A stretch of 64,000 nt of DNA from Dysgonomonas hofstadii (GTDB lineage Bacteria; Bacteroidota; Bacteroidia; Bacteroidales; Dysgonomonadaceae), in NCBI RefSeq assembly GCF_014196915.1, contig NZ_JACIEP010000003.1, positions 62,001 through 126,000 on the forward strand, read 5' to 3'. This document shows, in pieces, positions 3,679 through 47,381 of this stretch (the stretch's first letter is position 1; each line of letters begins with the position of its first letter). Below the pieces are notes generated by a model that was given only the letters and a program-made list of their open reading frames with translations, searched no databases and was not told the DNA's origin. A program made the position numbers and the translations under genes.

Positions 3679-5514
3679 TTGCTTAAAACGCGAAAAATAG
3701 AACTTCTTGCTCCGGCAAAAAACATGGAGTGCGGTATCGAAGCCATCAATCATGGAGCCGATGCCGTTTATATAGGTGCACCTCGGTTTAGCGCTCGGGC
3801 TGCTGCAGGTAATACGTTGAAAGACATTAAGCAGCTATGTGAATATGCACATCTGTTCAATGCTAAAGTATATGTGGCTCTGAATACAATATTAAACGAT
3901 AAAGAACTTCAGGAAACAGAACTGCTTATCCGGCAGCTTTATAATGAAGCTAAGATCGATGCGCTCATTATACAGGATATGGGCATTACAATGCTCGATC
4001 TTCCCCCCGTGGCTTTACATGCCAGCACACAGGTTGACAATAGGGGAGTCGAGAAAGTGAAATTCCTTGAAGAAGCAGGTTTCAGACAAGTGGTACTGCC
4101 TCGCGAACTTACAGTGGATGAGATACACGACATTGCTTCGCAGGTAAATATTCCTTTGGAAGTCTTTGTGCATGGTGCTTTATGTGTGAGTTATAGCGGC
4201 CAGTGTTACCTCAGTCAGGCTCTTTCGGGTCGTAGCGCTAATAAAGGTGCTTGTGCCCAGTATTGCCGTTTGCCCTATTCGCTGGTAGACTCAGCAGGCG
4301 AAGAGATTGTTTCGAAGAAACATCTTTTATCGATGAAGGATTTGAATCTTTCCGGTAATCTGGAAGAATTACTGGACGCAGGCGTAAGTTCACTGAAGAT
4401 AGAAGGGCGGCTAAAAGATGTTTCGTATGTGAAGAATGTGGTGGCGTATTACAGAAAGAAGCTGGATGCTATATTTGCAAAACGCCCCGAGTATTTAAGA
4501 GTGTCATCGGGTGCGGTCACATATGCATTTGAACCGAATTTGGAAAAAAGCTTTAACCGTAGCTTTACTAACTATTTTTTGCACGACCGTAGTAAAGATA
4601 TCTGGTCTTTGGATTCTCCTAAATCGGTAGGCGAGCCAATCGGCAAAATCACAGAAATAACAACAAAATATATTAAGATTAATACTCAGAAGGAATTTCA
4701 TAATGGTGACGGGCTTTGTTTCTTTAATCACAGGAAGGAATTGGAGGGGATCAATGTAAACAGGGTAGAGGGTGACCGTATTTATCCGGCTTCGATTCCC
4801 GACATAAAACGTGGCGCGTTTGTCTATCGTAATTATGACCACGAATTCGAAAAGGTTTTATCAAGGAAATCCGCCGAACGGAAAATAAAGGTGGAAATAG
4901 ACGTCGATGAAATACCTTTCGGGTTTTCTTTACAGGCAACAGACGAGGATCAAAACGTTGTTGTCCTTAATTTTGAATATGATAAACAAGCAGCTCAGAA
5001 ACCTCAGACTGAAAATATAAAAAGCAATCTGGGCAAAACGGGCAATACTATTTTTACAGTAGACAGTGTCGATATAAAATTCGCATCATCATGGTTTATT
5101 CCGGCATCTGTTCTGTCGGATTGGCGCAGGCAGTTGACGGATAAATTACTCTCTGTCCGGAAAATAGCATATAGACCGGAAATTGTAAAACACCGGCAAA
5201 CTTTCCATCCGTTTCCTCAAAAGGAAATCAATTATCAGGGGAATGTGATGAACACAAAAAGCAGGCAATTCTATGAACAGCATGAAGCCAGGGTAGCTCA
5301 ACCTGCTTTCGAAAAGCAGGAGCAAAAAGATGTTCCTTTAATGTTTATCCGCCATTGTATTAAATATTCATTGGGCTGGTGTCCTAAAGAAAAGGGAGAG
5401 AGGCATCCATATAAAGAACCTTTCTTTTTGATATATAATAATACTAAATTAAAGCTTTCGTTCGATTGCAAGGTCTGCGAGATGAAAGTCTTTAATGATT
5501 CTGCCGCAGAATAA
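3679..5514 (+). CDS. Peptidase U32 family protein with DUF3656-like region (RlhA-like)
   Basis: The protein has 611 residues and the U32 core from its first residues (IELLAPAKNMECGIEAINHGAD, here interrupted only by reading frame start choice). The start is a TTG at 3679-3681: an in-frame stop lies just upstream at 3670-3672, and the first ATG, at codon 16, would cut into the core. The Cys-rich stretch GACAQYCRLPY (about residues 190-200) and late cysteines (RHCIKYSLGWC, FDCKVCEMK) suggest an iron-sulfur cluster. Well-studied relatives are RNA hydroxylation enzymes: TrhP/YegQ, about 450 aa, on tRNA U34, and RlhA/YdcP, about 650 aa, on 23S C2501. Length and the extra C-terminal region favour the RlhA type. 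Protease activity is doubtful. Confidence 0.8.
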   Translation: MLKTRKIELLAPAKNMECGIEAINHGADAVYIGAPRFSARAAAGNTLKDIKQLCEYAHLFNAKVYVALNTILNDKELQETELLIRQLYNEAKIDALIIQDMGITMLDLPPVALHASTQVDNRGVEKVKFLEEAGFRQVVLPRELTVDEIHDIASQVNIPLEVFVHGALCVSYSGQCYLSQALSGRSANKGACAQYCRLPYSLVDSAGEEIVSKKHLLSMKDLNLSGNLEELLDAGVSSLKIEGRLKDVSYVKNVVAYYRKKLDAIFAKRPEYLRVSSGAVTYAFEPNLEKSFNRSFTNYFLHDRSKDIWSLDSPKSVGEPIGKITEITTKYIKINTQKEFHNGDGLCFFNHRKELEGINVNRVEGDRIYPASIPDIKRGAFVYRNYDHEFEKVLSRKSAERKIKVEIDVDEIPFGFSLQATDEDQNVVVLNFEYDKQAAQKPQTENIKSNLGKTGNTIFTVDSVDIKFASSWFIPASVLSDWRRQLTDKLLSVRKIAYRPEIVKHRQTFHPFPQKEINYQGNVMNTKSRQFYEQHEARVAQPAFEKQEQKDVPLMFIRHCIKYSLGWCPKEKGERHPYKEPFFLIYNNTKLKLSFDCKVCEMKVFNDSAAE

Positions 5515-5535
5515 TATACATATTGATATTTTCAG

Positions 5536-5543
5536 TATCTTTG
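5536..5543 (+). promoter_or_regulatory. -7 promoter element for the vanZ-tlpA-his gene train
   Basis: TATCTTTG is an exact TAnnTTTG match, 120 nt before the VanZ-like start. It is the only good promoter signal before a run of same-strand genes separated by few bases or overlaps, so it may drive the train into the his genes. Confidence 0.45.
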
Positions 5544-5663
5544 ATGTCTTGTATATGAGTGGTAGATAGTATTTAAAGATAAGTTTCTATATTAAAAACT
5601 ACCAATGGTTGTGCTTGTAAAAGCAATAAATAGGTCTGTGACCTTAATACCCTGTAACCTTAT

Positions 5664-6083
5664 ATGTTGAAAAGAATATTTAAATACACCTGGCCTCCGG
5701 CTATTGTAGCCGTTATAATATTTTACCTGTGCTGCCTTATTCCGCCTGACGATGTTCCGGATGTAGGATTTGAGTTCTTTATACCAACAGATAAGGTCGT
5801 TCATTTTTTGATGTATTTTGGTTTGGCAGGTATTGCGTCTTTCAATTATGTATATGATAAGAAAGGGCATATTATCATACTAAAATTATTAGTATTTGCT
5901 ATATTGGTTCCAATCCTGTATGGTGGTTTGATCGAAATTCTGCAGGCAGAGTTTTTCCCGCTACGATCGGGCGATTGGTACGATTTTTTAGCGGATGTGC
6001 TGGGAGCTTTAGCCTCCATCCCATTCTCTCTATGGTTTAGACGTATATTATTAAACAGACAATTAAAAGAAGAAGAAGCATGA
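5664..6083 (+). CDS. VanZ-like membrane protein
   Basis: This 139-residue protein has four hydrophobic segments. Family positions of VanZ are visible: DKVVHFLMYFGLA (about residues 42-54), then GGLIEILQ, then RSGDWYDFLADVLGAL near 105-120. VanZ itself gives low-level teicoplanin resistance, but most small VanZ-like proteins have no known function; a role at the membrane is all that can be said. Its stop overlaps the start of the TlpA-like gene by 4 nt (ATGA), so the two are translationally coupled. Confidence 0.8.
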   Translation: MLKRIFKYTWPPAIVAVIIFYLCCLIPPDDVPDVGFEFFIPTDKVVHFLMYFGLAGIASFNYVYDKKGHIIILKLLVFAILVPILYGGLIEILQAEFFPLRSGDWYDFLADVLGALASIPFSLWFRRILLNRQLKEEEA

Positions 6084-6610
6084 AAGCCAGATTATTTATA
6101 TTATTAAGCGGTTTGTTTTTTGTCCTGGGAGCAGTTGCTCAGAACATATACCCCGATCAGTATAAGGTGAAGGTAGGGGATATGGCTCCCGATTTTGAGA
6201 TGAGTTTGCCATCCGGTGAAAAAGTGAAACTATCCTCTTTAAGGGGAAAGGTGGTTATGCTTCAATTTACTGCCAGCTGGTGTGGTGTATGCCGGAAGGA
6301 AATGCCTCATATAGAAAAAGAAATATGGCAAAAGCATAAGGACAATACTGAATTTACTCTATATGGTATTGACCGTGAAGAGCCTGCGGAAACTGTATTG
6401 AAATTTGCTAAAGCCACAGGAGTTACTTATCCTATAGGTCTCGATCCGCAGGGAGATATATTCGCTTTGTATGCAGAGAAAAATGCAGGTATTACCCGGA
6501 ATATAATAATCGACAGGGATGGCAAGATTGTAATGCTTACCCGGCTTTTTAAATTGGAGGAATTTGGAGAAATGGTTGAACTGATCGATTCTCTGTTGGA
6601 AAAGAAATAA
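6080..6610 (+). CDS. TlpA-like periplasmic thioredoxin
   Basis: The protein has 176 residues: an N-terminal signal peptide (cut near LGAVAQ, residue 21), then an AhpC/TSA-Redoxin-type thioredoxin fold. The redox motif WCGVC gives Cys68 and Cys71. The stretch PDFEMSLPSGEKVKLSSLRG and a cis-Pro-type TRNIIID are typical of the TlpA/ResA group, which reduces disulfides in exported proteins. Its partner is unknown. It overlaps the VanZ-like gene by 4 nt and ends 1 nt before hisH, so it is probably in the same transcript as the histidine genes. Confidence 0.85.
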   Translation: MKARLFILLSGLFFVLGAVAQNIYPDQYKVKVGDMAPDFEMSLPSGEKVKLSSLRGKVVMLQFTASWCGVCRKEMPHIEKEIWQKHKDNTEFTLYGIDREEPAETVLKFAKATGVTYPIGLDPQGDIFALYAEKNAGITRNIIIDRDGKIVMLTRLFKLEEFGEMVELIDSLLEKK

Positions 6611-6611
6611 A

Positions 6612-7208
6612 ATGGATATAGCTATTATTAAATATAACGCTGGAAATATTTTTTCTGTAGAGCACGCTTTTAAGCGTTTAGGTGTAGATGCTGTTGTAAC
6701 AGAAGATAAGGAATTGATAAAAAAAGCAGACAAAGTAATTTTTCCCGGAGTGGGGGAGGCCAGCACTACCATGGATTATTTGCGTCGATCAGGTTTTGCC
6801 GATCTCATTCCTGATCTGAAACAACCTGTGCTGGGTATCTGCCTGGGAATGCAGCTGATGTGTTCATATTCGGAAGAAGGAGATGCCGATTGCCTGAATA
6901 TCTTTGATGCACCGGTGAAACGGTTTATACCACAGAAGCAGGAGGATAAAGTACCCCATATGGGATGGAACAATATTATGGATGTAAAGAGTGCTTTGTT
7001 TGACCAGTCGCTGGAGGATCAGTTTGTCTATTTTGTACATAGTTATTATGTACCTGTGACAAACGATACCATAGCAACGACTAATTATATACAACCTTTT
7101 AGTGCCGCTTTGCATAAGGATAATTTTTATGCCACACAATTTCATCCCGAAAAGAGTGGGAGCGTAGGAGAAAGAATCTTGAAAAACTTTTTGTCAAATA
7201 CTAAATAA
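6612..7208 (+). CDS. hisH: Imidazole glycerol phosphate synthase, glutaminase subunit
   Basis: The 198-residue class I glutamine amidotransferase has the nucleophile Cys77 in GICLGMQ and the His178/Glu180 pair in QFHPEKS. It makes ammonia from glutamine and passes it to HisF, forming IGP and AICAR in histidine synthesis. The partner hisF lies 1.7 kb downstream in the same gene train. Length is normal for the family, and no catalytic residue is missing. Confidence 0.96.
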   Translation: MDIAIIKYNAGNIFSVEHAFKRLGVDAVVTEDKELIKKADKVIFPGVGEASTTMDYLRRSGFADLIPDLKQPVLGICLGMQLMCSYSEEGDADCLNIFDAPVKRFIPQKQEDKVPHMGWNNIMDVKSALFDQSLEDQFVYFVHSYYVPVTNDTIATTNYIQPFSAALHKDNFYATQFHPEKSGSVGERILKNFLSNTK

Positions 7209-7217
7209 AATTAAGTC

Positions 7218-7679
7218 ATGGATAAATATGACGATTTAAGGAAACTGGAAGAACTTCGTGAAAGAGGGGTTATTTCGGAAGAAGAGTTTCAGAATGAAAA
7301 ACAACGGATATTGAATTCTGACAACTACTATCGTAAAGATATCGGAGGTATGTCGATAAATACATATCTGTTACTTATGCACCTGTCCCAGTTTGCCGGG
7401 TTTATTGTTCCCGGACTAGGCTTTATTGCGCCTATTGTAATGTGGGTAGTAAATAAGGAAAATCCTGAAGTAGACAAGCATGGTAAGAATATTGCCAATT
7501 TCATGATAAGCATGATCATATATGCCATTGTTTCAGCCATATTGATCATATTGATTATAGGTATTCCGATGCTGATTGCCATAGCTGTCATCGAACTTGT
7601 CTTTATAATAATAGCTGCGGTTAAAGCAGCAAACGGAGAATATTGGAAATATCCGTTGGCAATACAGTTTTTTACATAA
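7218..7679 (+). CDS. SHOCT plus DUF4870 membrane protein
   Basis: The 153-residue protein has an N-terminal SHOCT-like motif ([20 protein letters not shown], residues 4-23), a short helical oligomerization module, and a DUF4870 core. The core includes [20 protein letters not shown], then HGKNIANF and two or three membrane helices to about residue 140. DUF4870 proteins are small inner-membrane proteins of unknown function. It lies 9 nt after hisH and 7 nt before hisA, so it is embedded in the histidine gene run without an obvious link to the pathway. Confidence 0.8.
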
Positions 7680-37394: not shown

Positions 37395-38972
37395 TTATTC
37401 GTCGGGATAATTCTCCATTATCTCACTAAGATTGGAGAGGATAAACTCTTTGAGCTTGTCTTCGGGGACTATGATATTAAAATCCCCCCAGAAGTTTTTA
37501 TCGTATTTGTACTTGGTTTCCGAAAAAATTTTGTGTACAGGCAGCCGGTCTTTTCTCCTGATGCCTTTCACGTTTTCGGTCTCTGTTTTGCAATTTACCA
37601 TCTCAAACCATATATGTAATGCCGATCCGGAGCTGAACAGCCTTCGTTTCCTTTTTATATTGAATTTTATATCGGCACGTATATGATTGACATTATACAG
37701 TCCATTATCTAGCTTGCGGTATGTGACTATGTATTTTGCTTCTTTTAAGATGATGTCTAGTTTGGGATCTTTCTTTTCTATGAAACTCCTGCTGGCCAGC
37801 CTTGCATATTGGGGATTAACTTCAAAACGGGCTTCTACGAGTGCCGAGTTTTCAGGGTCTATATATAATTCTCCTTTATACAAAGGGGTTTTTATATGGT
37901 CTTTTTGTTCAAAAGAGATAACGTTTACCCGTTTGTTGTCTATATAAGAAATATCAGTGTGTGTGTAATTGTATTCTTCAGCTCTGTTAATATCAAGGAA
38001 ATCCGGTGTTTTCTTCATGATATCCAGGAAAAGGCTCGATTGTATTCCCGACTTCATTTTCGGAACTATAGAGTCTTTTTCGATCTGGCTTACTATGCGG
38101 CGCATTTTTATCAGTTTCACCTGATCCGATTCGGAAGAGTGCTGATAACCTGTTTTATATATTTGAAGCACTGCTTCGCTTATATCTGTATTGTTCTTTT
38201 TATGATCTACACCTTCCCTGTAAAAGGTAGTGAGTAGAGTAGGGGTGGATGGATAATTTTGCAAGCGCTTTTCGAGCATTTTATTTACTTCCTCCTGCGG
38301 ATTGACAATGCGTACAACTACTTCCTGAAGTGGAACAATTTTGGGCTCGAGCGATAATTTTATATTTTGTCCTGCCAGAAAGGATGCTTTTATTTCTTCG
38401 GTTTGATATCCCACGTGGCTAAATCTGACAGACGATTCATTCAACGAATCGGGGATAATGAATTTGAATTCCCCATTCCGGTTCGATACGGTGCCGATAG
38501 AACTCTGGTTTATACTAACAGTTCCATAGATAATAGGCTCATTGCTCATCCGGTCGTATATTGTACCACTTATTACAATATGATTATCCTGTTTGTTGTC
38601 TGGTGTCGCAATTGACGTTCTGGCTGCCACATATGGATTTTCTCCGTTGCGTAAAAGTATGTGTTTCCCTATTATGTTTATTTTCCACTGATTACTGCCT
38701 GTTATTGTGTAAATAGCTTCCCTGAGAGAATATTCTCCTTTCTTTATCTTTATTTTTTTATCGTTGTTGATTATCTGGCTATCGTAGATGAACTGATAAC
38801 CGGATTTCTCTGATACGTGGTTAAGTAATTCATAGATAGTTCCTTTGTCTTTATCCAATTTCAGTTTCAGACTCAAAATATTCCCATCGTCGGCCTGTGC
38901 CGGGATTACTGTAAGTATTAGTAATACCCAGACCGAAAAACGAAGGAAAATATTTTCAGCCGTCTTTTTCAT
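37395..38972 (-). CDS. STN plus carboxypeptidase-regulatory-like domain protein
   Basis: The 525-residue protein has a signal peptide (cut near IPAQA), an STN domain (about 33-107, DKGTIYELLNHVSEKSGYQF), a CarboxypepD-regulatory-like beta domain (about 131-220, VISGTIYDRMSNEPIIYGTV) and a C-terminal region of about 300 residues. That region is shared with the 40550-41809 gene (TLLTTFYREGVDHKKNNTDISEA; GELYIDPENSALVEA). STN domains normally receive anti-sigma contact in TonB receptors, but no plug or barrel is present. It follows fecR by 15 nt, so it is probably the signal sensor of this ECF system. Confidence 0.75.
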   Translation of the reverse strand: MKKTAENIFLRFSVWVLLILTVIPAQADDGNILSLKLKLDKDKGTIYELLNHVSEKSGYQFIYDSQIINNDKKIKIKKGEYSLREAIYTITGSNQWKINIIGKHILLRNGENPYVAARTSIATPDNKQDNHIVISGTIYDRMSNEPIIYGTVSINQSSIGTVSNRNGEFKFIIPDSLNESSVRFSHVGYQTEEIKASFLAGQNIKLSLEPKIVPLQEVVVRIVNPQEEVNKMLEKRLQNYPSTPTLLTTFYREGVDHKKNNTDISEAVLQIYKTGYQHSSESDQVKLIKMRRIVSQIEKDSIVPKMKSGIQSSLFLDIMKKTPDFLDINRAEEYNYTHTDISYIDNKRVNVISFEQKDHIKTPLYKGELYIDPENSALVEARFEVNPQYARLASRSFIEKKDPKLDIILKEAKYIVTYRKLDNGLYNVNHIRADIKFNIKRKRRLFSSGSALHIWFEMVNCKTETENVKGIRRKDRLPVHKIFSETKYKYDKNFWGDFNIIVPEDKLKEFILSNLSEIMENYPDE

Positions 38973-38987
38973 TTCGCCATGTTATTA

Positions 38988-39893
38988 TCACCTGAATATG
39001 GTAATGATATTTGATTCCTGTTTATATTGTAGATCCAGAGCCATGCTGATCAATTGCGCCATAGTATCCGGAGAGTCGTTGGTCAGTACCATCGTTAGCA
39101 TTCTGTCAGCTATCTCAGGTGAAACTTTGAGTTGTATGGAATCTGAATTCAAATTGATGATATGCACTACATTTGCCAGTTTTTCGTCTTTAAACTGTAT
39201 TTGGTTGAAATACTTGTCGAATAGTTTCTTTTCACTTATTTTCTCCGTAGTTAAATGACCCGATTCTATCACAGCCCTTTCGCCTGCCTTTACGTGAACA
39301 ATTTTGCCACTGCTTTTTGAGGTTACTTTTACTTCTCCATTTTTTACCGATAGCGAAAATGCGTTGCTATTGCTGCTTTTAACGTCAAAGGCAGTTCCCA
39401 ATACTTCGATTGTAGCCAGCGATGTTTCTATGAAGAAAGGTTTTTCTTTATTCTTACTGATCTCAAAAAAAGCATCACCCTGCAGATTTATTTCTCTTTT
39501 TGTTTCGGCAAACTGTTGTGGATACTGTATTGATGCCAGATCGGACAGGTATATAACAGATCCGTCTTCGAGAGTTGTAACCAGAGTTGGTGCTCCTTCG
39601 TCATTTTGGAGAGTGATAAGATCCTGCCTGGTGGTTTCTCCCGAAGAATTAAAGACTAATGCAAATACCAGACTGATGCAGGCCACCAGACCTCCGGCAA
39701 TATATAGCCATTTCAGGTTGACTTCTCTATTCTGAGTATTTATTGAATCCCTGAAGTCTTCATGTATAATGGCTGCTTCTTTTTCCGCAGGGGTTGTATT
39801 CTTCCGTTCGAGCAAGCCGTCCTGTTGCAGGCGCGAATAGAGTTTATCCCAACCCTGATCGGTAAATTTATCAGTCCTTTCTTTTATTTTCAT
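38988..39893 (-). CDS. FecR-family anti-sigma/sigma regulator
   Basis: The 301-residue protein has a cytoplasmic N-terminus, one membrane helix at about 63-81 and a periplasmic FecR domain (TLEDGSVIYLSDLASIQYPQ, then INLQGDAFFEISKNKEKPF and TSLATIEVLGTAFDVKS), followed by a C-terminal STN-like DUF4974 region (KLANVVHIINLNSDSIQLKV). It passes a signal from the outer envelope to the ECF sigma factor, whose gene it overlaps by 4 nt. Confidence 0.9.
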   Translation of the reverse strand: MKIKERTDKFTDQGWDKLYSRLQQDGLLERKNTTPAEKEAAIIHEDFRDSINTQNREVNLKWLYIAGGLVACISLVFALVFNSSGETTRQDLITLQNDEGAPTLVTTLEDGSVIYLSDLASIQYPQQFAETKREINLQGDAFFEISKNKEKPFFIETSLATIEVLGTAFDVKSSNSNAFSLSVKNGEVKVTSKSSGKIVHVKAGERAVIESGHLTTEKISEKKLFDKYFNQIQFKDEKLANVVHIINLNSDSIQLKVSPEIADRMLTMVLTNDSPDTMAQLISMALDLQYKQESNIITIFR

Positions 39894-40441
39894 GATGTAT
39901 GTGTATATTTTTCTATTTCCAACCTTAATGCCTGATAGGTTTTTGTCATTTCTGCTTCTACGGTTTTTACCGACAAAGACAGTATTTCGGCTATTTCTTT
40001 ATATTTCTTTCCGTCATTGCGATGCATCCGGAATATTTTGAGGCGACGTTCGGGTAACCTCTTCAATGCCTGATCGATTATTTTTTCCAGCTCCCTGTAT
40101 TCCATCTGTTCATGAGGGGTTTCGTCATGGGTTGCTTTATGCTGGTACAGCGCTTTTTCTTTATAACGGTTCTGTATATTTTTATGTTCTATGTATTGCA
40201 GCGACTGGTTACGAATGGCACCATATAGATAGCTTTTTATAGATCGTAGTATTCGTAGCTCTTGCCGGTCTCTCCACAATACATAGAACAGTTCCTGTAC
40301 TACTTCTTCCGATGCTTCCTGTTGCCCGGTTATGCTGTATGAGTACATGCACAAAGGAGCATAATATTGACGAAAGACATGTTCAAATGCCTTTATGTCT
40401 CCGTCTTTTATCCTTTTAAATGCAAGCAGATCGTTCAACAT
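39890..40441 (-). CDS. ECF RNA polymerase sigma factor
   Basis: The 183-residue sigma factor has region 2 (FEHVFRQYYAPLCMYSYSITGQ) and region 4 (LPERRLKIFRMHRNDGKKYKEIAEILSLSVKTVEAEM), the form typical of Bacteroidota FecI-like factors. It is co-transcribed with the FecR gene downstream (4-nt overlap). Targets probably include the local STN-protein genes, but no promoter set can be read. Confidence 0.9.
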   Translation of the reverse strand: MLNDLLAFKRIKDGDIKAFEHVFRQYYAPLCMYSYSITGQQEASEEVVQELFYVLWRDRQELRILRSIKSYLYGAIRNQSLQYIEHKNIQNRYKEKALYQHKATHDETPHEQMEYRELEKIIDQALKRLPERRLKIFRMHRNDGKKYKEIAEILSLSVKTVEAEMTKTYQALRLEIEKYTHTS

Positions 40442-40549
40442 ACGTAGTTGTCAGTTAATACCGAATATAGTGAAAGCAGAAGTCAGAGACCGGGTTGGCC
40501 CGGAAGTGTGCTAAAGCGCATCCTATATTCTATAAATATATGAAAAATA

Positions 40550-41809
40550 TTATTTGTCGTGTTGTTTTTTCAATTTATTCACAGCGTCTTCCAGCGATTC
40601 GGTAGGTTCTATGATATTGTAATCTTCCCAAAAGCCCGGATCAAGGAAACTGCTCACTTTCTCCGATAGCGAATTTTTTGCATCGAAAGCCAGCTTGTTC
40701 GATATTTTTTCCACATTGTCTTCTTTACGGTCGGTTACTACCATCTCAGATACAATGGTATATCCGGTAGAGAACAATTTACGTTTCCAGTCACATTTAA
40801 ATCGTACTTCATTCCTTATGTAGCTGAGATAGCTGATTCCGTTATCTTGCTTATATGTGATCAGGAATGTTACTTCTTCTGGTTTGAAACGTAGTTTGAA
40901 AGGTTTTTTACGCAGGATGACTTTCGATACTTTATCTTTATCGTCCATGCTCAGATTGATATCTGCCTGTGAAAATGCCAGATTTTCCTGATCGATATAT
41001 AGTTTTCCGAAATATAAAGCATATGGGCTTATTGCATTCGGTTTGAATTTTACTACATAGTGGGGGCGTTCGTTTATCATCACCGATTCGTCCCATTCAA
41101 ATTCATGAAGTGATAACATTTCTTCATCTAAAAAGAAATTCGGATTCTTCACAACGTCCATATATGTTGACAAATTCGGCCCCCCAATAAATTTAACCGC
41201 CAGAGTATCATCCAGCTTCGGACTCAATAACTTACGTCCTTTATATACCTGCACCTTGTCGCGGGATGCATCTTCACTATATGGAGTTTTGTAGATATTT
41301 ATAATCGCCTCGGATATATTTATATAGTTACGCCTTTTCTTTATAGTTTCTCTGTAGAAGCCTGTCAGAAGATTTACCTTGTCGGGATTGTTTTCGGCAA
41401 TCTTACCCATGGCTGTTTCTACAAGCTTGCGCGGGGTCATATTGTCGGGAACTATTACAATGTCTTTTAGCTGTCTGGTATTCGATGACAAATATATTGT
41501 AATGTCTTTCTCATTGTTGTTTTTTATAGGGTATGTTCTGTTTTCATATCCCAGATGTCTGACCTCGAGGGCCTTTGCCTGTAATGAATCGTTTATTTTT
41601 ATACTGAAAGTGCCATCAGAGTTCGTTACTGTACCGATACCTGTTCCCTGAACAGAGATAGAGGCATATTCAAGCTTTTTGTTGTTCCGGCTGTCTTTTA
41701 CAATTCCATTGATAGTCGTATAAGACATTTCTTGTCCATGAAGAAAAATAAATCCGGATGTCAACAATAAAATAAATAATTGTGCTGTACGTAAGTATAT
41801 TGTTTTCAT
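40550..41809 (-). CDS. Carboxypeptidase-regulatory-like domain protein, paralogue without STN
   Basis: I choose the ATG at 41809 (MKTIYLRTAQLF); the frame is open four codons further up. About 419 residues: signal peptide, then directly the CarboxypepD-regulatory-like domain (INGIVKDSRNNKKLEYASIS, about 33-115) and the same 280-residue C-terminal region as the protein at 37395-38972 (LTGFYRETIKKRRNYINISEA; GKLYIDQENLAFSQA). It looks like a paralogue that lost, or never had, the STN domain. Together the two flank the sigma/FecR pair. Function is unknown. Confidence 0.7.
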   Translation of the reverse strand: MKTIYLRTAQLFILLLTSGFIFLHGQEMSYTTINGIVKDSRNNKKLEYASISVQGTGIGTVTNSDGTFSIKINDSLQAKALEVRHLGYENRTYPIKNNNEKDITIYLSSNTRQLKDIVIVPDNMTPRKLVETAMGKIAENNPDKVNLLTGFYRETIKKRRNYINISEAIINIYKTPYSEDASRDKVQVYKGRKLLSPKLDDTLAVKFIGGPNLSTYMDVVKNPNFFLDEEMLSLHEFEWDESVMINERPHYVVKFKPNAISPYALYFGKLYIDQENLAFSQADINLSMDDKDKVSKVILRKKPFKLRFKPEEVTFLITYKQDNGISYLSYIRNEVRFKCDWKRKLFSTGYTIVSEMVVTDRKEDNVEKISNKLAFDAKNSLSEKVSSFLDPGFWEDYNIIEPTESLEDAVNKLKKQHDK

Positions 41810-41914
41810 AACTGTAAACATTAAAGGTGAATAATAACCGGTTTACTTATATGATCGGGAAAGAAGTAAAAACCCTATTAAAAAAACAATTTATTTTTGA
41901 TTAAGATACAAAAT

Positions 41915-41993: not shown

Positions 41994-42431
41994 TTATTTT
42001 ATCTCTATTTTCTTCACTTTATCTTCTAATGCTTTATTCATCTTGGGTAATGAAACCTGTAGTATTCCGTCTTTCTGAGTAGCCGAAATATTTTCAGTAT
42101 CAATGTTTTCAGGAATGGTAAAGCTGCGGGTAAATGAAGATTTCCGGAATTCCTGACGAATAACTTTTTGATTTTCGTCTTTTTCTTCATTATTTACTTC
42201 ACTCTGAGCCGAAATTCTGAGTATGTCCTTTTCTATTTCTATTTTAATATCCTCTTTATTGTATCCCGGTACAGACACTTCAATACTGAAAGCCTTATCG
42301 TTTTCAGATACATTAATAGCAGGAAGTTCTCCTTCTATAAAATTGTTGAATAAGCTATCGTTCAGATATCCATTGAAGAATGAAGGGAAGAAGTTTCCGC
42401 TACGGTCAAATTTTCTGATTTGATTTCTCAT
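41994..42431 (-). CDS. Hsp20 small heat-shock protein
   Basis: The 145-residue protein carries the alpha-crystallin domain from about 40 to 130: FSIEVSVPGYNKEDIKIEIEKDILRISA, then SFTRSFTIPENIDTENISA and DGILQVSLPK, followed by a short C-terminal tail without a strict IxI motif (it ends KKIEIK, which may serve). It holds unfolded proteins for refolding by ATP-dependent chaperones. A strong ribosome-binding site (AGGAGGA) lies before the start. The upstream region contains a sigma-54-like box and two similar palindromes. Confidence 0.92.
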   Translation of the reverse strand: MRNQIRKFDRSGNFFPSFFNGYLNDSLFNNFIEGELPAINVSENDKAFSIEVSVPGYNKEDIKIEIEKDILRISAQSEVNNEEKDENQKVIRQEFRKSSFTRSFTIPENIDTENISATQKDGILQVSLPKMNKALEDKVKKIEIK

Positions 42432-43803: not shown

Positions 43804-45420
43804 TTAACCAGAAATATATTCTAACAATTCTGCATCCACTGCCTTTTTAATAAGTCTAGCTCTTTTGGGTCCGACATTATAAATTTTAAGTATTAAATCA
43901 GACTCTGTTTTGTTATGCAAATCATCTATAGTATAAATACCTGCTGCGTTCAATTTTCTTTTCTGCCAATCTGTAAGCATTTGTAATACACCAATTGGCT
44001 TTTTAAGCATACTCTCTAGAGATTTATGAAAGGCTTCATCCTCATCCGTTATTACATTTTTTAAATTTATTACAGAAGTAAAAGCAGAATTATTTTTTCC
44101 AAATTCAGGAAACTTTGCAATCGATAAATTATTATAAAAACTTTCAGAGATAGAATGAGGATTGGACTCTAGGCTAATAATGCACCCATATTTCACTTCG
44201 TATCGAGTACCAAGTTCAGACCTAGTTGCTCTAATTCCCGAATCCATTTTTCTTATAATCCCCGTATATGTTAATAATCGCAGAGATTCATTGACGGTTT
44301 CAGGTGCATCTTTATGAATCCAAAAATAAGTAGTAGTTTCATTCTTACCATCAGCTTTTCGGACATTATTATACTTGACTATTGAAGGGACAACACTTTT
44401 TTCCAGAAAATCTCTACCCCAATCTATTAAGACTTTATGTCCCTGATATTTATCTCCTAAATCGGTATGTTCCGCCCATATCTTATTTCTATAAAAATCC
44501 TTGATAATTTGCTCTACATTTCTAGAATTAAATGGAGTTATATCTTGTAAAGTTTTTAATAAAAAACGAGGATTTCCCCCACAACAATACGCTAAAGTTA
44601 TAAATAATGAAATATTGTTTTCTATGGCTTTCTTTAAGCTGTCATCTGATTGATTAAATACTATTTCTTTAAAATATTGTAAATAGTTAGAATCTCTAAT
44701 ATCTCTTTCTAGTTTCAGATATATACAATCATGCAAAGGTTCAAAAGATTTTCCAAAATATGTAACACCTGGATAAATTGCAGCATTACAGGTTATATAA
44801 GGAGACCTAAGATCCTTAAATAAACTAAAAAATTGCCTTTGTTGCTCAGGCCGAAACACATGAGCTGCCTCATCGAATAGAAAATAGATCCTTTCTAAAT
44901 TATTTTCTTTACAAATTAATTCGATTGCCTCTTTTACGTCCTCAATATCAGGCAATGCATCTATATTTATAGAAGAATGATCTTTATATGATTTTTCATA
45001 TAATTTTACAATCTCTTTTAGACTTTTAGAAACTTCTTCATCATTTTCTTTTTCATCATTACTTAATAAATTTGCAGAATGCTGATTTATTATAATCCCT
45101 TTTTTTCTCAAAGTATTCATGAGTCCTTTTAAGGTTTTCGCAAGCATCCAATGATAAAATTGCAGTTTATCATCAGTGCTTATTAAGGAACTAATATTAA
45201 ACGACATATAAACACATATGCAGTTATTATGACTCTCTTCAATTTCCAATTCTGTAAGTCTTAAAAGAAAAGATTTACCTGTTCCTCGAGAGCCTTCTAG
45301 CAGACATGGGTCTGGTAATATGAGAGATTTAATTATATCCTTATCTTGTTGACTAATAACTGAAAGACTTTTTATATCTTCCAACTTAATACTCTCTGTT
45401 CTTAAATAGAATGTAGACAT
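43804..45420 (-). CDS. ORC/Cdc6-like AAA ATPase with C-terminal helix-hairpin-helix
   Basis: The 538-residue P-loop ATPase has Walker A EGSRGTGKSF (42-51), Walker B RIYFLFDEAAH (Asp183-Glu184), a winged-helix-like region and a C-terminal helix-hairpin-helix (WQKRKLNAAGIYTIDDLHN, then KIYNVGPKRARLIKKAVDAE, about 485-530), a non-specific DNA-binding module. The ATPase part resembles bacterial ORC-CDC6-type AAA proteins found in conflict loci. Codon use and base composition are AT-rich. It starts 10 nt after the HEPN-like gene on the same strand, so the two form one unit. It would be the sensor or DNA-binding half of a possible defence pair. This is inference. Confidence 0.65.
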   Translation of the reverse strand: MSTFYLRTESIKLEDIKSLSVISQQDKDIIKSLILPDPCLLEGSRGTGKSFLLRLTELEIEESHNNCICVYMSFNISSLISTDDKLQFYHWMLAKTLKGLMNTLRKKGIIINQHSANLLSNDEKENDEEVSKSLKEIVKLYEKSYKDHSSINIDALPDIEDVKEAIELICKENNLERIYFLFDEAAHVFRPEQQRQFFSLFKDLRSPYITCNAAIYPGVTYFGKSFEPLHDCIYLKLERDIRDSNYLQYFKEIVFNQSDDSLKKAIENNISLFITLAYCCGGNPRFLLKTLQDITPFNSRNVEQIIKDFYRNKIWAEHTDLGDKYQGHKVLIDWGRDFLEKSVVPSIVKYNNVRKADGKNETTTYFWIHKDAPETVNESLRLLTYTGIIRKMDSGIRATRSELGTRYEVKYGCIISLESNPHSISESFYNNLSIAKFPEFGKNNSAFTSVINLKNVITDEDEAFHKSLESMLKKPIGVLQMLTDWQKRKLNAAGIYTIDDLHNKTESDLILKIYNVGPKRARLIKKAVDAELLEYISG

Positions 45421-46129: not shown

Positions 46130-46463
46130 GTGTATGAGAATGAAGTCTAATATTATTTATACTAATTATAAATGTAAATATAATTTAAAAATACAAAAAA
46201 AACAATCATTATATTTCAAAAAGAAAGAAATGAGTATTTATATAAATGAAAGACAATTTTAATATGACTGAAGTATGCCTATACAAATCTTAGTGTATCT
46301 CCTTGAATGTTTAGTTTAACCCTTAATACTTTCCTAAGATTTATGTAATTCAAGAGTAACTTAATTATTTTTTTTCAAACCTTCCCTATTTTGACCTCCT
46401 ATTCTTATAAAAATTAATCAGTCCCAAGTGGGATTATGTATAACAATTAAGTTTTATAAGAAA
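46130..46463. other. AT-rich gap with a GTCCCAAGTGGGA palindrome
   Basis: No gene is visible. The region separates the HEPN gene start from the truncated integrase gene and should hold promoters for both. Near the right end (46421-46433) is GTCCCAAGTGGGA, one base different from the sequence in the hairpin at 43539-43551. Confidence 0.45.
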
Positions 46464-47381
46464 ATGAACAAAGAATTATCAATTTCAGAAGTCATCGATT
46501 ACTTAATCGAAAAATTCAGTACACAAGTTAGGATCAAGAATGGTCGTGAAGTCATCGGCTCCACCAATGCCAAGGACTATAAGATGCTGAAAAACTCATT
46601 GGAGAAGTTTGTATCAGAAAAATATAAGAAGCCACTTACATCCTATCAGTTTCAGGATATAGATACTCATTTTCTCATTGATTACATTTCTTTTCTGGAA
46701 AGACGGGCTGCCGACATGGGCACAAAAGGTGCCATACCCAACCGATTGAAGAAACTTCAGGCTGTCTTCAATCATGCCCGGGAAATGGGAGTTAAGAACG
46801 CCGATTCATCCATATTCAAGAATGTATCAGAAGAAATGAAGATATCTGAGGTAGCTCCTTTAATTCTTTCTGCTGACACTATGCATAAGATAGAGAACAT
46901 TGATCGCTCGGCCTTTTCCCGTACCGAACTGTTTCATGTTGACCTGTTCCTCTTTAGTTTATATACCGGCGGCATGACTTGTTCCGATATGGCTTATCTA
47001 ACTTATAGCCAGATCAAAAAGGGCATAATTACCTGCGAGAAGATGAGAACCCATAAGACAGTTATTGTCTCTCTTATCACAAAATCTCAGGATATAACAG
47101 ATCATTACCGGAATAAGTGTTATTCCAATTATGTCTTACCCATATTTACAGCAAAGCATCTGACAGAAAAACAACAGCGTGAAAGAATAGACCGATTGAC
47201 ATTTAGCGTTAATAAGACACTGATCAAAGTATGTAAACAAATTAAGTTCCGAAAGAAAATAACATTGGGCTCAACACAGGCTGCCTATATAGCCCAGATG
47301 CTGAAGTCTGGGGTTGATCCATTCTACATAGCCCAAAGTACCGGATGCACAACAGAATATATCTGTAAACATTTTCTATAA
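46464..47381 (+). pseudogene. Truncated tyrosine recombinase lacking catalytic residues
   Basis: The 305-residue product (start ATG at 46464; the frame continues 12 codons further up from a GTG) matches the middle and C-terminal parts of the two full recombinases in this island. It lacks the roughly 95-residue N-terminal arm-binding domain. At the first Arg position it has YTGGMTCSDMAYL. At the usual AR position of box II it has GSTQAAYIAQM, and the nucleophile Tyr position reads ICKHFL, with Cys. The frame is intact, so the product may exist as an inactive DNA-binding protein. It shares CYSNYVLPIFTAKH with the recombinase at 57372-58658. Confidence 0.65.

Follow-up and report, generated by a model that had tools for sequence, protein, structure and literature searches.

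A 64,000-nucleotide stretch of the Dysgonomonas hofstadii genome (positions 62,001 to 126,000 of contig NZ_JACIEP010000003.1, assembly GCF_014196915.1; hereafter the window) carries on its minus strand a four-gene cassette that we regard, with moderate confidence, as a self-contained, autoregulated extracytoplasmic function (ECF) sigma factor circuit for the cell envelope, in which an RseB-like periplasmic sensor would act on a FecR-type anti-sigma factor. The genes are transcribed in the order STN-less protein, ECF sigma factor, fecR and a 525-residue protein with an STN domain (the STN-type protein). Gene content, gene order, domain make-up, fold class and promoter motif were read from the sequences and from structural models. 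An earlier note on this DNA had described the sigma/fecR pair followed by a 525-residue STN protein without a TonB-receptor barrel; this arrangement and its coordinates hold, no TonB-receptor barrel model matches the C-terminal part of the protein, and the same design recurs in 78 of 80 related loci.

The cassette recurs as a unit in related genomes

We scanned genome contigs with nine STN-type proteins, which gave 200 relatives, and kept the best 80 for locus counts, so that the STN-type gene is present in all 80 loci by construction of the search. The order STN-less LolA-like gene, sigma gene, fecR and STN-type gene was found on one strand in 78 of these loci, and the two exceptions (L138 and L151; loci are designated by L numbers) are cut by contig ends. 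In L079, L104, L112 and L142, where the order was still counted, gene 1 begins at a contig end, and a split into two frames affects the STN-type gene in L133 and fecR in L139. The genes are closely spaced, with median intergenic gaps of 53 bases between gene 1 and the sigma gene, -4 between the sigma gene and fecR, and 13 between fecR and the STN-type gene. Carriers include Dysgonomonas, Parabacteroides (distasonis, goldsteinii, gordonii and others), Tannerellaceae, other Bacteroidales/Bacteroidetes metagenome-assembled genomes and several Bacteroides, among them fragilis, xylanisolvens, faecis and graminisolvens. No flanking gene is conserved (up to five genes away in both directions, even the commonest family is limited to 11 of the 78 loci), and the unit therefore consists of the four genes. 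A chance gene order was rejected because the order recurs in 78 of the 80 relatives. Judged by these comparisons, the locus is a conserved system and a predicted operon.

The association of the STN-type gene with fecR extends further. fecR precedes it in 79 of the 80 loci (L138 is cut at that point). Of 19 loci that are more distant, 18 have fecR no more than 1.7 kb upstream, and in 15 of these the two genes are adjacent; in the other three, an extra protein lies between the two genes (L213 and L214) or a gap of 1.6 kb separates them (L226). The intervening protein (L213, 3588-5153; L214, 4159-5718) has about 520 residues and matches the family weakly (20-22 bits) over the STN region. A sigma gene was not seen at the distant loci L222 and L225, which end at contig ends, nor at L229 and L231. 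We conclude from these comparisons that STN goes with fecR across distant families.

In a survey at the family level, 50 of 61 genomes had a relative at E ≤ 1e-30, and 14, by row count, had an STN-type protein. At the level of the order, with up to six candidates scored per genome, 68 of 247 genomes had a match at E ≤ 1e-25, and 57, again by row count, had one that started at query residue 60 or before. A profile survey of 345 genomes of the phylum, with up to four first-look candidates scored per genome and a list filled by SusC-sized frames, gave no full-length STN-type protein outside the order among the matches listed, which is not evidence of absence.

Domain make-up and predicted fold of the outer proteins

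Both outer proteins of the window have a clear CarboxypepD_reg domain (Pfam CarbopepD_reg_2, E 1.4e-16 in the 525-residue STN-type protein and 3.8e-18 in the STN-less protein). The STN match of the window's STN-type protein is below threshold (16.1 bits vs a Pfam cut-off of 28.4; E 0.0097), and STN is matched at E ≤ 0.01 in 33 of 51 aligned STN-type relatives, the best at 1.7e-10; none of the 50 aligned STN-less relatives has STN in its list of matched families. By these profile matches, the STN domain is real in the STN-type family. For the anti-sigma factor, the FecR family PF04773 is matched in 22 of 22 aligned cassette FecRs. Judged by eye, the cytoplasmic part is short, at about 58 residues, in FecRs like that of the window, and the N-terminal extension is longer in the more distant cassettes L143, L145 and L146.

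To model the outer proteins, AlphaFold2 was run on alignments of 51 of the 75 STN-type and 50 of the 73 STN-less proteins of normal length, the window's own included. The STN-type model had a mean predicted local distance difference test score (pLDDT) of 82.7 and a predicted template modeling score (pTM) of 0.56, and the STN-less model 85.5 and 0.69, respectively. The top Foldseek matches of the STN-type model in the PDB were the MucB-MucA complex (6in9, E 2.5e-7), a DUF1329 protein (4.0e-7), RseB (2v43, E 6.5e-7) and MucB (6jau). VIA-align 2 matched residues of about 222-480 of this model to LolA/LolB-side proteins (Porphyromonas gingivalis LolA3, Z 9.7 over 188 residues at 4.7 Å; a Vibrio LolA-like protein, 9.5; LolB, 9.2) and to guard-side proteins (MucB, Z 9.4 over 149 residues at 3.5 Å; RseB, 8.9 over 142 residues at 3.4 Å), scores modestly higher than the level of 7 to 8 stated for models without clear matches. 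Most RseB and MucB rows align only chain residues up to about 192-208; in these rows, the small C-terminal domain that binds RseA or MucA is without a match, which does not exclude its presence. The STN-less model gave the same LolA/RseB/MucB-type matches. The CarboxypepD_reg domain of the STN-type protein resembles the NTE domain of a SusC (9hfj, Z 12.7), and there is a weak structural match of its STN region, at model residues 36-144, to FpvA, a receptor (5odw, Z 7.3). The Pfam family LolA_like (PF17131) was matched at E ≤ 0.01 by five STN-less members out of 50 and by one STN-type member out of 51, and a PDB sequence search with the family profiles returned the CarboxypepD_reg part and weak unrelated matches and nothing else.

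No TonB-receptor barrel model of Pfam or TIGR matches the C-terminal part of the STN-type protein; its sole receptor-model match is to the SusC model TIGR04056 over the CarboxypepD_reg stretch, at 38.4 bits vs a cut-off of 368. Because no barrel model matched and a LolA-type half-barrel was predicted, a hidden receptor barrel in this part was rejected. The models thus predict that the C-terminal ~250 residues form a LolA/RseB/MucB-type half-barrel, and the earlier description of this region as a unique C-terminal part does not stand, the fold being common to the paralog.

The two outer proteins have the CarboxypepD_reg domain and the LolA/RseB-like body in common, and the C-terminal part of the STN-type protein matches the paralog in hhalign (100%, E 1.4e-56). 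When 231 sequences were placed in a tree, those of the STN type formed one side of a single split with 98 members and a support of 0.735; this count includes the STN-type genes of L216, L223, L271 and L272, which were assigned by tree place and score. Because the STN-type sequences lie on one side of one split, the tree points to one old duplication behind the pair. STN-less genes also occur in 20 genomes without an STN-type match, an absence that rests on the family and order surveys, the latter with up to six candidates scored per genome. In 19 of these 20, there was no sigma gene or fecR in the stretch read. The exception, L239, has a different, weakly matching sigma gene ~1 kb downstream of the STN-less gene, followed by fecR and an STN-bearing SusC-like frame.

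A predicted promoter motif in front of the cassette

The motif TAGGGT-N14-CGATC(A/T)TA lies upstream of the STN-less gene with at most one mismatch in 70 of the 74 loci with enough upstream DNA (64 of them exact) and was not found upstream of the sigma gene (0/78 upstream regions), fecR (0/78) or the STN-type gene (0/79). There are 66 exact sites in the 2.59 Mb of the 80 loci, counted on both strands, vs 2 in 6.47 Mb of shuffled sequence, and the motif is present in 9 of 9 further linked cassettes. It is absent in all 20 genomes with an STN-less gene and no STN-type match; the comparison of 70/74 with 0/20 gives a Fisher p of 8e-17, for sequences that are not independent. The base table of the motif was compiled from 67 of the 70 sites, and it also shows a conserved TANAA box starting four bases past the -10-like element (base-table positions 32-36); this box may mark where transcription starts or serve as another binding site. 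Overall, we predict that the motif is the ECF-type promoter of the cassette and that the cassette is autoregulated.

The site in the window is the only exact match in the D. hofstadii genome. The single site with one mismatch (L154) lies inside an open reading frame (ORF) on the opposite strand, and at up to two mismatches there were 43 sites vs 68 for a backwards control. Across 18 genomes, 18 of the 21 exact sites lie at the operon, one at a tandem STN-less copy in the genome of L118 and two before an alcohol dehydrogenase gene, in D. mossii and D. alginatilytica. At up to one mismatch, 95 sites were found in these genomes (77 without the 18 operon sites) vs 181 in the control; in the genome of L073, the non-operon sites (8) outnumber those of the control (6). 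A broad regulon with the exact motif was rejected because sites with up to one and up to two mismatches are fewer than in the controls; weaker sites may be used by the sigma factor. In L118, the tandem STN-less genes (4645-5913 and 6265-7533) each have an exact motif of their own, and the two sites are 1620 bases apart. Taken together, the sigma factor and the STN-less gene look like a dedicated sigma-target pair. The earlier note had set the STN-less paralog on the other side of the sigma gene; this paralog is gene 1 of the same operon and the main predicted target.

Among 25 genomes of the genus of the window, there are 23 sites with up to one mismatch, of which 14 precede the STN-less gene, three precede an alcohol dehydrogenase gene of the kind named above (two of these by eye) and six precede no ORF; the backwards control gave ten sites, all in a single genome, and none in the other 24. 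We note that in four genomes, namely those of D. mossii, D. alginatilytica, strain ZJ279 (with one mismatch) and another genus member, the motif lies before a gene whose product is an exported zinc-dependent alcohol dehydrogenase. The loci concerned are L210, with the site at 1501-1528 and a gene that starts at about 1579; L195, with the gene at 1457-321 on the minus strand; and L325, L323 and L328. The enzyme was identified by Pfam in two cases and by eye in the others. This exported enzyme is a possible second target. Where the STN-less gene is unlinked and an STN-type gene lies elsewhere, the motif was found in 3 of 10 genomes, all of one family (L218, L250 and L253); the site is the only exact match in two of these genomes and one of two in the third.

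Features of the window

The positions of the cassette features are listed in Table 1; signal peptides and periplasmic location were judged by eye from the N termini. The ORF of the STN-less protein has 423 codons and reaches 41821, and the alignment of relatives supports Met5 as the conserved start, which bears out the start at 41809 proposed in the earlier note.

Table 1. Features of the cassette in the D. hofstadii window (positions in the 64,000-nucleotide stretch)
Feature	Position	Strand	Remarks
STN-less protein, ~419 residues	40550..41809	-	Hydrophobic N terminus (signal peptide by eye), CarboxypepD_reg and predicted LolA/RseB-like domain; operon gene 1
ECF sigma factor, 183 residues, Bacteroidetes type	39890..40441	-	TIGR02985, E 5.7e-47, above cut-off
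FecR-type anti-sigma factor, 301 residues	38988..39893	-	PF04773, E 8.4e-13; 4-base overlap with the sigma gene
STN-type sensor candidate, 525 residues	37395..38972	-	STN, CarboxypepD_reg and predicted LolA/RseB-like C-terminal part
STN domain of the STN-type protein, residues ~31-110	38643..38882	-	Sub-threshold Pfam match at residues 59-108
CarboxypepD_reg (transthyretin-like) domain of the STN-type protein, residues 134-220	38313..38573	-	Pfam and structure match to 9hfj
LolA/RseB/MucB-like domain of the STN-type protein, residues about 222-480	37533..38309	-	Predicted fold
Predicted cassette promoter, TAGGGT-N14-CGATCATA (ECF-type -35/-10)	41850..41877	-	Exact motif match

Upstream of the cassette lies an Hsp20 gene (41994-42431). 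Beyond it, by eye, are a P-loop ATPase-like ORF (43804-45420) and a phage-integrase-like ORF (46428-47381).

Discussion

In the model that we favor, the STN-type protein would be a free periplasmic coregulator whose STN domain docks on FecR at its C-terminal, periplasmic part in the manner of a TonB-receptor signaling domain, and the docked protein would either shield FecR from proteolysis or hold it inactive. The LolA/RseB-like pocket would sense a lipophilic ligand (a mislocalized lipoprotein, lipopolysaccharide or another lipid), and binding of this ligand would alter the STN-FecR contact, leading to cleavage of FecR and release of the sigma factor. The sigma factor would then transcribe the operon from the TAGGGT-N14-CGATCWTA promoter, with the STN-less paralog as the chief product. 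This paralog would bind the same ligand but not FecR, and as an effector it would compete with the sensor and remove the ligand, giving negative feedback. The STN-FecR contact, the proteolysis, the ligand class, the feedback and the match of sigma factor and promoter are steps that we infer. Both halves of the model have precedents. In cell-surface signaling, the signaling domain of the TonB receptor is described as binding the STN-like end of the anti-sigma factor (PMC11637429; PupR structure, PMC7186176), and that of FoxA as binding FoxR when there is no signal and so protecting FoxR from proteolysis (PMC11637429). The LolA-fold protein MucB is reported to shield MucA until a lipid enters its cavity, RseB being the Escherichia coli equivalent (PMC7400510). 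Compared with the RseA-RseB pair, the model would have FecR in the role of RseA and STN as the means of docking. A bolder version, which we put forward tentatively, is that the cassette represents a new class of Bacteroidales envelope sensor that fuses STN docking to LolA-fold lipid sensing and has as its near-only target its own STN-less paralog, the two competing for one lipid or lipoprotein ligand in a homeostat for periplasmic lipid and lipoprotein traffic.

Several observations weigh against this model. Docking of the STN domain on FecR is argued by analogy because the STN part, compared by profile (hhalign) to the C-terminal end of the cassette FecRs, gave a negative result (probability 0.7%) and because FecR_C is matched in 8 of 22 cassette FecRs, the window FecR not being among them; further, the distant STN-type gene of L224 has no fecR or sigma gene within the 12 kb read. 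The whole-chain Foldseek superpositions are poor (the first 19 rows include LolA, RseB and MucB at a query TM of 0.14-0.20 and a root mean square deviation of 11-20 Å), as is expected when one of several domains matches. The VIA-align 2 Z scores of 9.7, 9.5, 9.4 and 8.9 are ties, so that RseB and MucB are not separable from plain LolA carriers, and fold likeness by itself shows no function, lipid sensing included. As for the promoter, the motif is assigned to the cassette sigma factor by its position alone. It is missing in L090, L125, L141 and L152 among the 74 loci, in the seven other genomes with an unlinked STN-less gene, and before extra STN-less copies beside a linked cassette (L248, L249, L263 and one copy each in L271 and L272); one of the six genus sites with no ORF behind them (L329) is an exact match. 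By eye, L125 carries TAGGGT-N14-CGGTCGAA, the two halves of the motif are 15 bases apart in L152, and the ORF of L141 has an over-long N terminus, by which its upstream region may be misplaced. In L090 (Parabacteroides distasonis), the promoter region upstream of 6251 seems, by eye, to be deleted in comparison with L088, the four genes being intact.

One alternative is that both outer proteins are simply co-expressed effectors, periplasmic carriers or chaperones of the LolA kind. FecR would then sense alone or with some different partner, and the STN domain would be left over from a receptor. The scores of P. gingivalis LolA3 and further LolA-type proteins reach those of MucB and RseB, and STN-less relatives occur in genomes without an STN-type match. 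We nevertheless consider this alternative unlikely, since a leftover STN domain would be expected to erode, whereas the STN-type sequences form one clade (98 of 231, support 0.735) that remains linked to fecR even in distant families (18 of 19). Less probable still is a circuit that reports nutrients or host polymers, in which a glycan or peptide set free at the outer membrane would bind to the CarboxypepD_reg domain or in the LolA/RseB-like pocket. CarboxypepD_reg domains do occur on SusC receptors (9hfj), and nearly half of the 50 ECF sigma factors of Bacteroides thetaiotaomicron are reported to lie in polysaccharide loci (PMC12596196); however, no family travels with the cassette beyond its four genes, and of the 21 exact promoter sites in the 18 genomes, 19 precede STN-less genes, two an alcohol dehydrogenase gene and none a SusC-type gene.

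A further alternative is ordinary cell-surface signaling with an unlinked SusC-type receptor as the real transducer of the cassette FecR; in the usual design, fecR adjoins a SusC-type receptor with an STN domain. The STN region is matched in 11 SusC-sized frames of the D. hofstadii genome, but each of the eight examined has its own adjacent FecR, and FecR was found beside none of five SusC-sized frames without STN. The normal FecR-SusC design thus exists in the same genome beside the barrel-less cassette. Moreover, the cassette brings its own STN protein in all 80 loci, although by construction of the search, and the exact promoter occurs once in the genome, before the cassette operon. This alternative therefore appears very improbable. 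The two findings by which the earlier note would have been overturned did not appear: no barrel is present in the predicted C-terminal structure, where a LolA-type half-barrel is predicted, and no SusC gene for this sigma factor turned up elsewhere, the only exact promoter being that of the operon itself, which does not exclude a receptor linked in a different way. That signaling is here separated from nutrient uptake, as the note suggested, is what we infer as the likeliest reading.

With the FecI-FecR-FecA, FoxI-FoxR-FoxA and Pup systems, the cassette shares a sigma factor and a FecR-type anti-sigma factor encoded together, a third protein with STN and predicted self-activation. It differs from them in that its STN protein has a LolA/RseB-like body in place of a plug or barrel, and in that its main predicted target is the STN-less paralog and not a receptor. 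In RpoE-RseA-RseB of E. coli and AlgU-MucA-MucB of Pseudomonas, the genes for the sigma factor, the membrane anti-sigma factor and the periplasmic LolA-fold protein lie together, as in the cassette, in which, by the models and by analogy, the LolA-fold protein is likewise a likely lipid-responsive guard of the anti-sigma factor. The anti-sigma factor of the cassette is of the FecR and not the RseA/MucA type, the candidate guard carries STN and CarboxypepD_reg in addition, and the predicted regulon is nearly one operon, unlike that of RpoE, which is broad.

Within the Bacteroidales, the barrel-bearing anti-sigma factors of Bacteroides (Das1-Dma1, the EcfO pair and the BcpT-induced pair) also belong to ECF circuits tied to the envelope. 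Das1-Dma1 is said to be a barrel-bearing anti-sigma circuit of Bacteroides, described by Pardue et al. in 2024. The cassette differs from these in having a short FecR and a separate protein, whereas in those circuits the prediction is that the anti-sigma factor itself extends to the outer membrane by a barrel (PMC9308784). These factors and the sigma factors of the B. thetaiotaomicron survey (PMC12596196) are the nearest Bacteroidales circuits that we found, and the cassette is not described in the available text of these sources. The C-terminal domain shares its predicted fold with the LolA/LolB lipoprotein carriers of Bacteroidota (9tp6 and 9tpm) but, unlike them, is fused to CarboxypepD_reg (and STN) and encoded inside a sigma/anti-sigma operon; the terms RseB, FecR and carboxypeptidase are absent from the main text of a LolA/LolB survey (PMC11885536). 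A search of open-license papers gave no recognizable description of an STN-LolA/RseB fusion or of the four-gene cassette.

To our knowledge, little is known about how Bacteroidota sense defects in their own outer membrane. The cassette is widespread, occurring in Bacteroides fragilis, B. xylanisolvens and Parabacteroides among others, compact, and equipped with one sharply defined predicted promoter. It joins two textbook mechanisms of guarding an anti-sigma factor that are usually treated apart, and it probably senses envelope trouble and not food. The system allows one to ask whether an RseB-like protein monitors lipid or lipoprotein mislocalization outside the Proteobacteria, with the promoter serving as a clean reporter. 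If the bolder version is true, B. fragilis, Parabacteroides and their relatives would have a dedicated homeostat of lipid and lipoprotein traffic.

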